Below are positions 49,700 through 64,000 of a stretch of 64,000 nucleotides of DNA, piece after piece (position 1 is the stretch's first letter; each line of letters begins with the position of its first letter). The notes below the pieces were generated by a model. That model saw only the letters and a program-made list of their open reading frames with translations. It had not been told where the DNA came from and searched no databases. Where the stretch lies: contig NZ_DF970243.1 in NCBI RefSeq assembly GCF_000953855.2, forward strand, positions 1 through 64,000, read 5' to 3'. The position numbers were made by a program, and so were the translations under genes. Source of the stretch: Mizugakiibacter sediminis (GTDB taxonomy: Bacteria; Pseudomonadota; Gammaproteobacteria; Xanthomonadales; Rhodanobacteraceae).

Positions 49700-51421
49700 A
49701 TGGCCATCGACGTGGTCGCGGACAAGACGGAAGCGGGCAGCGACGAGGCGCGCGTCTGCGCGCGCCTGGTCGAGCGCGGGCGGCTGAAGGAGGCCGATCT
49801 GGCGCGCGCGCGCCGCCTCCACGAGGAGGCGCCCGACGGCACCCTGACCGCGCTGCTGACCCGCCTCGGCCTCGTCTCCGAGCGCGACATGGCGGAGGCC
49901 TGGGCCGAGCTGCTGGACCTGCCGCTGCTGGCCGTCAAGGACGCGCCGGAGGCGCCGCCCGAGCTGGCGCTGCCGGTGCGTTTCCTCAAGCAACACCACG
50001 TGGTGCCGCTGGCCGAGCGCGACGGCGCGCTGGAACTGCTGGTGGCCGATCCGGCCGATCCCTATCCCGCGCAGGCGGTGGCGCTGGCCGCCGGCAAGCC
50101 GGTCGTGCTGCGCGTCGGCGTGCGCGCCGAGGTCGACGACCTGATCGAGCGCTACTACGGCCAGGGCCGCTCGGCGATGGGCGCCATCGTCGAGAACCTC
50201 GCCGAGGAAGGCGCACGCGGCGAGGACGACATCGAGCACCTGCGCGACCTCGCCTCCGAGGCGCCGGTGATCCGCCTGGTCAACCTGCTGATCCAGCGCG
50301 CGGTCGAGCAGCGCGCCTCCGACATCCACATCGAGCCGTTCGAGAGCCGCCTGAAGGTGCGCTACCGCATCGACGGCGTGCTGCACGAGGTGGAGTCGCC
50401 GCCGGCGGCGTCCACCGCGGCGGTGATCAGCCGCGTCAAGATCATGGCCAAGCTGAACATCGCCGAGCGGCGCCTGCCGCAGGACGGCCGCATCATGCTG
50501 CGCGTGCAGGGCAAGGAGCTCGACCTGCGCGTGTCGACGGTGCCGACCAGCTTCGGCGAGTCGGTGGTGATGCGCATCCTCGACCGCGGCAACGTGGTGT
50601 TCGACTTCGAGGCGCTCGGTTTCACCGAGCCGCTGCTGTCGCGCTTCATCGGACTGCTGGAGCGGCCGAACGGCATCCTGCTGGTCACCGGCCCGACCGG
50701 CTCCGGCAAGACCACCACGCTGTACACGGCGCTGTCGCGCATCAACACGCCGGACGTGAAGATCATCACCGTCGAGGATCCGGTCGAATACCAGCTCGAG
50801 GGCATCAACCAGATCCAGGTGAAGCCGGCGATCGGCCTCGACTTCGCCGGCGCGCTGCGCTCGATCGTGCGTCAGGACCCGGACGTGATCATGATCGGCG
50901 AGATGCGCGATCTGGAGACCTGCCGCATCGCCATCCAGTCCGCGCTGACCGGCCACCTGGTGCTGTCCACGCTGCACACCAACAGCGCCGCCGGCGGCGT
51001 CACCCGCCTGCTCGACATGGGCGTCGAGGACTACCTGCTCGCCTCCACCGTCAACGGCATCATGGCGCAGCGCCTGGTGCGCAGGCTCGATCCGGCCACC
51101 GCCGAGCCGTACGAGGCGCTGCCCGAGGTGATCGAGGAATTCCGCCTCGACCGCTACACCGACGCGCGCCCGATCCGGCTGTGGCGGCCGGTCGCCTCCG
51201 CCGCCAATCCCACCGGCTACTACGGCCGCACCACGATCATGGAACTGCTGGTGATGTCCGATCCGCTGCGCCGCCTGGTGATGCAGCGCGCCGACACCGG
51301 CCGCATCGAGGCGCTGGCGCGCGAGGAAGGCATGCGCACGATGTACGAGGACGGCATCGTCAAGGCGCTGGCCGGCATCACCACGATCGAGGAGGTGCTG
51401 CGTGTCACGCAGGAGGCTTGA
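49700..51421 (+). CDS. gspE: Type II secretion ATPase GspE/XpsE
   Basis: A 573-residue secretion ATPase. N-terminal GspE domains are followed by the Walker A loop GPTGSGKTTT near residue 333, then ITVEDPVEYQ, Walker B-like DPDVIMIGEMRD and the His box LSTLHTNSAAG. It powers pseudopilus growth. The zinc tetracysteine of EpsE-type proteins is absent; the region reads RLDPATAEPY and RPVASAANPTGYYGR instead. The start at 49700 has GGGG upstream. It is the first gene of the operon. Confidence 0.95.
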   Translation: MAIDVVADKTEAGSDEARVCARLVERGRLKEADLARARRLHEEAPDGTLTALLTRLGLVSERDMAEAWAELLDLPLLAVKDAPEAPPELALPVRFLKQHHVVPLAERDGALELLVADPADPYPAQAVALAAGKPVVLRVGVRAEVDDLIERYYGQGRSAMGAIVENLAEEGARGEDDIEHLRDLASEAPVIRLVNLLIQRAVEQRASDIHIEPFESRLKVRYRIDGVLHEVESPPAASTAAVISRVKIMAKLNIAERRLPQDGRIMLRVQGKELDLRVSTVPTSFGESVVMRILDRGNVVFDFEALGFTEPLLSRFIGLLERPNGILLVTGPTGSGKTTTLYTALSRINTPDVKIITVEDPVEYQLEGINQIQVKPAIGLDFAGALRSIVRQDPDVIMIGEMRDLETCRIAIQSALTGHLVLSTLHTNSAAGGVTRLLDMGVEDYLLASTVNGIMAQRLVRRLDPATAEPYEALPEVIEEFRLDRYTDARPIRLWRPVASAANPTGYYGRTTIMELLVMSDPLRRLVMQRADTGRIEALAREEGMRTMYEDGIVKALAGITTIEEVLRVTQEA

Positions 51422-51538
51422 GAGCGGGGCGCAGGCAAGCGGGAGCGCGAAGCGGGGGGCGCGGCCGGTCCCGCGCCGCGTTGGCGCACCCGCCACACCC
51501 TCCCTTCCCTGCACCCTTTGCCCTGCTCCCTGCTCGCG
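51422..51538. repeat. Heptad-bounded intergenic element 5
   Basis: The left block from 51422 has units such as GAGCGGG and AAGCGGG. The right block at 51504-51538 has five units such as GCACCCT and GCTCCCT. It fills the gap between gspE and gspF. Confidence 0.65.
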
Positions 51539-51544
51539 CTAGCC

Positions 51545-52786: not shown

Positions 52787-53350
52787 ATGAATGTTTTCGA
52801 TATGGGCGGGACGCGGGACTCGGGATTCGGGACTCGAGGAGAAGACCACGACGCCGCTGCGTCGAGCGCGCGGCTGGCGCCTGGCGTGCGGTGCCAAGGC
52901 GCGCAACCGCGTAACGCCTGGCGCTTCGCCGAGTCCGGAGTCCCGAGTCCCGGCCGTTTGCGCGGCTTCACGCTGATGGAGATGCTGGCGGTGATCGTGC
53001 TGCTCGGCATCGTCGCCGCGATCGTCGTCACCCAGGTCGGCAAGAACGTCGACAAGGGCAAGTACGGCGCCGGCAAGGCGCAACTGGCCACGCTCGGCGT
53101 GAAGATCGAGAACTACGCGCTCGACAACGGCACGCCGCCGCGCCAGCTCTCCGACCTGGTGAGCAAGCCCGCCGACGCGCCGCACTGGAACGGCCCCTAC
53201 GCCAAGGCTTCCGACCTGATCGATCCGTTCGGCCATCCGTTCGGCTACAAGTACCCAGGCACGCACGGCAGCTTCGACCTGATCTTCTACGGCCAGGACG
53301 GCCAGCCCGGCGGCGACGGCCTCAACGCCGACGTCGGCAACTGGCAGTGA
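52787..53350 (+). CDS. gspG: Major pseudopilin GspG/XpsG with unusually long leader
   Basis: The mature part (about 127 residues) begins G|FTLMEMLAVIVLLGIV, the prepilin peptidase site, and ends in the GspG calcium-loop region DGQPGGDGLNADV. It is the main pseudopilus subunit. From the ATG at 52787 (AGGATG upstream) the leader is 60 residues instead of the usual handful to 25, because element 6 (52804-52954) is read in frame. A TTG just before the cleavage site would give a 3-residue leader and is less likely. Confidence 0.9.
   Translation: MNVFDMGGTRDSGFGTRGEDHDAAASSARLAPGVRCQGAQPRNAWRFAESGVPSPGRLRGFTLMEMLAVIVLLGIVAAIVVTQVGKNVDKGKYGAGKAQLATLGVKIENYALDNGTPPRQLSDLVSKPADAPHWNGPYAKASDLIDPFGHPFGYKYPGTHGSFDLIFYGQDGQPGGDGLNADVGNWQ
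52804..52954. repeat. Heptad-bounded element 6, inside the gspG leader
   Basis: Left units such as ACTCGGG and ATTCGGG run from 52804 to 52838, and right units such as TCCCGAG from 52927 to 52954 in the opposite sense. The interior is related to the inverted copy at 53887-54017: GAGGA, AAG and CGAGCGC lie in the same order, and both contain CTTCGCCGAGTCC. Confidence 0.75.
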
Positions 53351-53374: not shown

Positions 53375-53884
53375 GTGCTCACGATCGGACGCCCGCGCCG
53401 CGCCGAACGCCCGTCGATCCCGCGGCGCGCCGCGCGCGGCTTCACGCTGCTGGAGCTGCTCGCCGTGATCGTGCTGATCGGCATCGCCATCAGCGTCGCC
53501 GCGGTGGCGACCAGCCGCGGCCTGGCCGGCGCTCGCGTCGCCGCGGCCGGGCGCGATCTCGCCGCGGCGCTGCGCTGGACGCGCACGCAGGCGATCGTGC
53601 AGCAGCGCGAGCAGGTGTTCGAACTCGACCTCGCCGCGCTGCGCTACCAGGTGCCCGGCCGCGACGCGGTGGCGCTGCCGCCGGGCATGCGCGTCGAGCT
53701 GACCACCGCCGCGCGCGAACGCATCGACGCGCGCCGCGCCGGCATCCGCTTCTATCCCGACGGCAGCTCGACCGGCGGCCACATCACGCTCACGTCCGGC
53801 GCGCGCGCCTGGCGCGTCGACGTCGGCTGGCTGACCGGCACGGTCAGCCTGGAGGACGGGGTGCCGCGCCCCGCATCGTCATGA
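53375..53884 (+). CDS. gspH: Minor pseudopilin GspH/XpsH
   Basis: A 169-residue prepilin. The leader of 22 residues ends in AARG|FTLLELLAVIVLIG, followed by a C-terminal GspH domain (residues about 55-165). It belongs to the pseudopilus tip set. The start is GTG at 53375; no ATG is available. It shares ATGA with gspI, and its last codons precede element 7. Confidence 0.87.
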   Translation: MLTIGRPRRAERPSIPRRAARGFTLLELLAVIVLIGIAISVAAVATSRGLAGARVAAAGRDLAAALRWTRTQAIVQQREQVFELDLAALRYQVPGRDAVALPPGMRVELTTAARERIDARRAGIRFYPDGSSTGGHITLTSGARAWRVDVGWLTGTVSLEDGVPRPASS

Positions 53885-54432
53885 TCGGGACTCGGCGAAG
53901 GGCAGGGCGCGACGCGGCTTCGCACTCCGAAGAGATGCGCGGCGCGCCGGTCATGCGCTCGGCGCATCGGCCTGTAAGGCTTGTCCTCCAGTCCCGGGTC
54001 CCGCGTCCCGGGTCGCGGCTGCCGCGCGGCTTCGGCCTGCTCGAACTGGTCGCCGCGCTGGCGCTGTTCGCCGTTGCCTCGGCGGTGCTGTACGGCACGC
54101 TCGCCGCTTCGCTGCACGGTGGCCAGCGCGCCGTCGAGATCAGCGCGGCGACGCTGTGGGGCGAATCGTTGCTGGACACGCTGGGCACGGATGCGCCGTT
54201 GCGGCCCGGCGTGCGCGAAGGCCGCTTCGATGCGCGTTATCGCTGGCGGCTGACGGTGGCGCCGTGGCAGCCGCCGCAGGCCGCCGCCTCGCCGCTGCCG
54301 TCGCCGATCGCGCTGTACCGCGTCGACCTGGAGGTGCTCTGGGATGGCGCGGCCGGGCCGCAGCGGATCCGCTTCGGCACCTTGCGCGCGCTGACCGCGC
54401 CTGCCGCCGGCGCCGTCGGAGGCGGGCCATGA
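53881..54432 (+). CDS. gspI: Minor pseudopilin GspI/XpsI with unusually long leader
   Basis: The mature part starts at RG|FGLLELVAALALFAVAS and is about 133 residues, usual for GspI. From the ATG at 53881 the leader is 50 residues; from the ATG at 53953 it would be 26. In both cases it is coded by the heptad element at 53887-54017. It forms part of the pseudopilus tip with GspJ and GspK. Confidence 0.85.
   Translation: MIGTRRRAGRDAASHSEEMRGAPVMRSAHRPVRLVLQSRVPRPGSRLPRGFGLLELVAALALFAVASAVLYGTLAASLHGGQRAVEISAATLWGESLLDTLGTDAPLRPGVREGRFDARYRWRLTVAPWQPPQAAASPLPSPIALYRVDLEVLWDGAAGPQRIRFGTLRALTAPAAGAVGGGP
53887..54017. repeat. Heptad-bounded element 7, inside the gspI leader
   Basis: GGGACTC at 53887 marks the left end. 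Units such as AGTCCCG and CGTCCCG run from 53990 to 54017. In reverse complement it aligns with element 6 over both ends and parts of the interior, so the two are inverted copies about 0.9 kb apart. Confidence 0.75.
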
Positions 54433-63512: not shown

Positions 63513-63529
63513 TCCCGAGTCCCGAGTCC
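63513..63529. repeat. Heptad block before pyrF (element 8)
   Basis: Two exact TCCCGAG units at 63513-63526 and a third, weaker one reach the ettA stop codon at 63530. No clear opposite-facing block is seen within the 93-base gap. Confidence 0.5.

Positions 63530-64000
<471 letters not shown>

Follow-up and report, generated by a model that had tools for sequence, protein, structure and literature searches.

Intergenic-type heptamer repeat elements within the leaders of type II secretion pseudopilins in Rhodanobacteraceae

In Rhodanobacteraceae, a family of soil bacteria, the leaders of type II secretion system (T2SS) pseudopilins repeatedly held repeat hairpins of a normally intergenic kind, which are almost certainly translated and then cleaved off. 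The case analysed in most detail was the gspG gene of Mizugakiibacter sediminis, located in a 64,000-nucleotide stretch of DNA, hereafter the window. The repeat class itself is known. Its recurrent, frame-keeping presence in T2SS pseudopilin leaders looks new, and the literature searched, which was thin on subscription papers, did not mention repeats within leaders of pseudopilins. Within a conserved protein, one part thus behaves like intergenic DNA. Since the leader would be cut off, repeats can come and go with the mature protein unchanged. The finding is also a warning that T2SS annotations in Rhodanobacteraceae may contain miscalled starts and unusual N-termini. The pseudopilin gene sets, carrying 0 to 4 elements each, form a natural series suited to testing hairpin effects on expression.

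The element in the GspG leader

The GspG leader peptide was encoded at 52787–52966 on the plus strand. Its open frame comprised 60 codons from the ATG to the Gly codon ending at 52966, which precedes the cleavage site, and the prepilin motif FTLMEML was next in the gspG frame (read directly and with Pfam). An inverted-repeat element at 52808–52951 covered 48 of the 60 codons, in agreement with the preliminary description, in which most of the leader was attributed to a repeat element. The left arm (52808–52835, plus strand) consisted of the heptamers GGGACGC, GGGACTC, GGGATTC and GGGACTC. The right arm (52931–52951) read GGGACTC, GGGACTC and CGGACTC on the minus strand, corresponding to the three C-rich heptamers GAGTCCG, GAGTCCC and GAGTCCC on the plus strand. 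Both arms were identified by direct reading and pattern matches and enclosed a spacer of 95 bp (52836–52930, plus strand). In RNA folding, the element formed one long hairpin with −115.7 kcal/mol and z = −2.8. Rfam matched no known RNA family between positions 50000 and 56000, and a plasmid search for the source of the GspG leader gave no match.

The cleavage motif was unaltered by the element according to sequence and Pfam. The N-methylation domain of a pseudopilin (N_methyl, PF07963) was detected at GspG residues 59–80, and the domain defining GspG (T2SSG, PF08334) was detected in the mature part with E = 1.6e-26. The cleavage site and the mature major pseudopilin (52967–53350, plus strand) were thus intact, as originally described. 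Comparison with close relatives without the insert, which had been suggested as a check, was possible with one genome of the same genus. Mature GspG was 95% identical between the two, and the leader of the relative, MRLVSFRSRPRRAAG, comprised 15 residues behind a GAGGAGA ribosome site and carried no element.

The reading favoured here, with a probability of about 0.74, is that the element lies in the gspG frame, is translated from ATG 52787 and is removed with the 60-residue leader to leave a normal mature GspG. An intergenic inverted heptamer element typical of the order would be located at the gspF–gspG junction within the gspG frame. Translation from ATG 52787 would run through the entire element, and prepilin peptidase would cut off the resulting cytoplasmic leader of 60 residues. 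Such a leader seemingly has to provide no more than a frame without stops, a few basic residues and a Gly before the cut. Heptamer units, being stop-free on either strand, would ease insertion in open frame. As the unit of seven is coprime with three, an array encodes one and the same heptapeptide repeat whichever frame is read. Elements would have been gained or lost in the GspG, GspH, GspI and GspJ leaders many times within the Rhodanobacteraceae. The leader peptide is probably a passive by-product, and any function would reside in the DNA or the mRNA hairpin.

Relation to known repeat classes

A 21-base heptamer pattern gave 59 overlapping matches at about 16 sites in the 3.1-Mb genome of the window; the reversed-pattern control gave none. 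Most of the other copies in this genome were intergenic and often stood right after a stop codon, as judged with a simple codon-usage gene caller. Close to the end of the window, the minus strand carried another heptamer pair (63513–63530). On contig C88 of the same genome, a glmM-like gene seemingly starts with MPESRVPNPESRKYFGTDGIRG (locus L071, 1056–1100); its initial codons may come from a heptamer arm, or translation may begin further in. In blastn comparisons of spacers, the GspG spacer was unrelated to all other elements of the genome. Because spacers were unrelated within this genome, a classical mobile element with constant internal sequence was ruled out, although genome G194 (below) had similar spacers in three leaders. 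In comparison with MITEs, the terminal arms of the GspG element were inverted repeats, and the gspF–gspG junctions of the window and the same-genus relative were too divergent for an empty site to be read.

The element belongs, as a variant, to the GGGANTN class described in Xanthomonas, with mostly GGGACTC replacing GGGAATC. The GGGNATC and GGGANTN heptamers of Xanthomonas are tandem, G-rich and close to gene ends, and often occur as two convergent arrays able to form a stem-loop, with 70–75 such pairs per genome (Rehm et al. 2015, PMC4692102). The strict definition demands at least one GGGAATC unit, 89–93% of the repeats are intergenic and xpsF is marked among the repeat-associated genes (PMC4692102). 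The window copy likewise had at least two tandem GGGANTN units per arm (left GGGACTC, GGGATTC and GGGACTC, right two GGGACTC), and its arms formed a convergent pair. The other copies of the genome were also mostly intergenic near stop or start codons. The GspG copy differed in being situated inside a coding frame and in comprising GGGACTC, GGGATTC and GGGACGC units instead of GGGAATC. Some relatives, G087 and G155 among them, had GGGAATC units in their leaders.

Rickettsia palindromic elements of 105–146 bp occur between genes and also as translated, in-frame parts of conserved proteins (PMC2229807). The heptamer elements resemble them as palindromic repeats with both intergenic and translated copies. 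The Rickettsia elements occur in many unrelated proteins and are retained in the product, whereas here a removable leader is concerned and one operon is repeatedly affected. Furthermore, the Rickettsia elements share one conserved sequence, in contrast to the unrelated spacers among the copies of the window's genome. Other repeats were also observed. At loci L149 and L150 (genomes G190 and G156), GspG and GspH leaders ended with PSSILPRGAGEE..., apparently another repeat family, so that leaders may be open to repeats of different kinds. The gspF–gspG junction of genome G035 (L187) held a VIPAQAGIQ stretch that looks like a further dispersed repeat, beside heptamers upstream of gspG.

Distribution in the family and within the operon

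The survey comprised 144 Rhodanobacteraceae genomes with a usable locus, in which 564 GspG, GspH, GspI and GspJ cleavage sites were located. An array was scored when it was within 240 bp upstream of the cleavage site. Heptamer arrays were found upstream of 99 sites and lay entirely in open frame in 97 cases. The open-frame sites were spread over 45 genomes and 12 of the 21 genera. Between the first array and the cleavage site, the coding frame was open in 98 of 99 cases, compared with 77 and 73 for the two remaining frames, a bias with P about 4e-11 in which the independence of cases is overstated, as related genomes were counted apart. None of the six frames of the heptamer arms contained a stop, which means that only the spacers can be under this selection. 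When the family was searched for heptamer arms followed by a GF-type prepilin motif, 40 of 233 genomes matched and the controls gave zero matches. Every match that was read out was a T2SS pseudopilin, in the same or a second system. In Pseudomonas orthologues of the same secretion system, leaders were mostly 5–16 residues long. Several of these Pseudomonas loci (L304–L335) were plant-associated, with GspG about 77% identical, short leaders and almost no heptamers. This points to a horizontal transfer of the T2SS.

Twenty-two T2SS operons were scanned for arrays, 20 of which had been chosen as element carriers, so that junction rates are biased upwards. Arrays were present at F|G in 17 operons, G|H in 19, H|I in 16 and I|J in 8. 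E|F also held arrays in 8 operons, adjoining GspF, whose product is no prepilin. The junctions J|K, K|L, L|M, M|N and N|D, which were also short or overlapping, had no arrays in the 22 operons. Conserved T2SS gene interiors contained a single array in 227 kb, situated at the extreme end of gspK. In the window, the gspE–gspF gap (51471–51544) had a degenerate repeat rich in C at its end, CCCTTCCCTGCACCC...CCCTGCTCCCTGCTC; the two genes of the same-genus relative were 1 bp apart.

Type IV pili were compared in 30 element-rich genomes, nearly all with elements in T2SS leaders. None of 60 type IV prepilin motifs had an array, and 100 kb of type IV locus sequence held none either; among T2SS sites, 77 of 118 had one. 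The preliminary description had regarded the leader as possibly one of few coding places able to absorb an insert, because prepilin peptidase removes it. The first part is supported and extends to GspH, GspI and GspJ, with the mature part untouched, 98 of 99 frames open and conserved gene interiors nearly free of arrays. Removal by the peptidase is insufficient as the reason, since type IV prepilins are cut by the same enzyme class and had no arrays. Tolerance of prepilin leaders was thus ruled out as the complete explanation.

In a quick tree of GspF and GspG, presence of an element in GspG required 20 changes for 22 positives, compared with 20.7 for shuffled labels. Owing to weak tips, this result was read as labile and no more. 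Presence in GspH, GspI and GspJ was slightly clustered on the tree, and elements of GspH and GspI tended to change jointly (sign test, p about 0.008). In genome G194 (L116), the spacers of the GspG, GspH and GspI leader elements resembled one another, which suggests copying among the leaders of one genome.

The mRNA hairpin might be kept for message stability or coupled translation and thereby set the proportions of GspG, GspH, GspI and GspJ, an alternative we consider rather doubtful. The hairpin would stand right after the upstream stop at the start of a pseudopilin gene, and the translated leader would be the cost of this placement. The concentration of arrays from E|F to I|J with none from J|K to N|D, the joint changes of GspH and GspI and the type IV loci without elements are consistent with this alternative. 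So is the matching of arms, as the two arms of an element were of identical type in 39 of 56 cases, compared with about 10 by shuffling. However, arm matching may simply reflect the origin of the repeats, and the signal was weaker within a genome (p about 0.01–0.04) because elements of one genome are alike. Presence in GspG was also no more clustered than shuffled labels. Most genomes had no elements, so the element is dispensable. Judged from these sequence patterns, an mRNA-level role of the element is possible. Similarly tentative is the idea that T2SS pseudopilin junctions in Rhodanobacteraceae are a selected niche for inverted heptamer elements, where the translated hairpin at the start of each pseudopilin gene would adjust the proportions of the pseudopilins and the removable leader would make room for it in coding sequence.

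Translation of the leaders

Among the in-frame starts of gspG, ATG 52787 had the best pairing energy with the 16S tail (−6.9). The alternatives were GTG 52781 (−4.1), ATG 52802 (+0.4), GTG 52886 (−3.5) and TTG 52958 (−2.5). The likely starts of element-free relatives had ribosome-site energies of mostly about −6 to −8, and most element-bearing relatives showed a good ribosome site and an ATG directly 5' of the G-rich arm. The element would be untranslated if gspG started at TTG 52958 (52958–52960, plus strand), leaving MRG as leader, or at the spacer codon GTG 52886, with the remainder forming an untranslated hairpin before gspG. Both codons are present in frame, and a codon-usage gene caller truncated gspG at TTG 52958. 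Such a cut is expected where a leader has no coding bias. The TTG start had been named in the preliminary description as the observation that would speak against a translated element. It is unlikely, as is the GTG start, given their ribosome-site energies of −2.5 and −3.5 versus −6.9 for ATG 52787. A leader of only 3 residues would also be shorter than any in the relatives read. The open frame maintained across the family argues further against an untranslated element. In addition, 69 of the 99 arrays, from 36 genomes, were downstream of the last start leaving a leader of more than 3 residues. These 69 arrays must be translated, as they are downstream of the last plausible start.

A second element-bearing leader in the window, absent from the preliminary description, belonged to GspI (53881–54027, plus strand). 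Its element (53887–54016, plus strand) comprised GGGACTC on the left, about 90 bp and an inverted array at 53989–54016. The start of gspI is more secure than that of gspG. Its ATG at 53881 overlapped the gspH stop in the window and the same-genus relative alike, and heptamers followed directly after this ATG in both. According to 16S-tail pairing, gspI had no ribosome site of its own, and its translation is presumably coupled to gspH for this reason. The GspI heptamers of the relative must be translated, because no start codon follows them before the cleavage site.

For the translated leader peptide itself, a function of its own, for example in membrane targeting or timing as suggested in the preliminary description, is highly improbable, because the spacer sequence was not shared within the window's genome, differing heptamer types give quite different peptides and close relatives have no insert, although long leaders are known in type IVb pilins and in pilins of Streptococcus sanguinis (PMC10191384). 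The GspG leader is like these in its length and in its predicted removal by prepilin peptidase. The window case differs in being a T2SS pseudopilin with short-leadered near relatives, and an origin of long leaders from repeat elements is not described in PMC10191384. In several relatives, a small palindrome, GGGCGCGC...GCGCGCC, which may only reflect Arg and Ala codons, was often located ahead of the mature pseudopilin sequence, in the stretch from the C-rich arm to the cleavage site.
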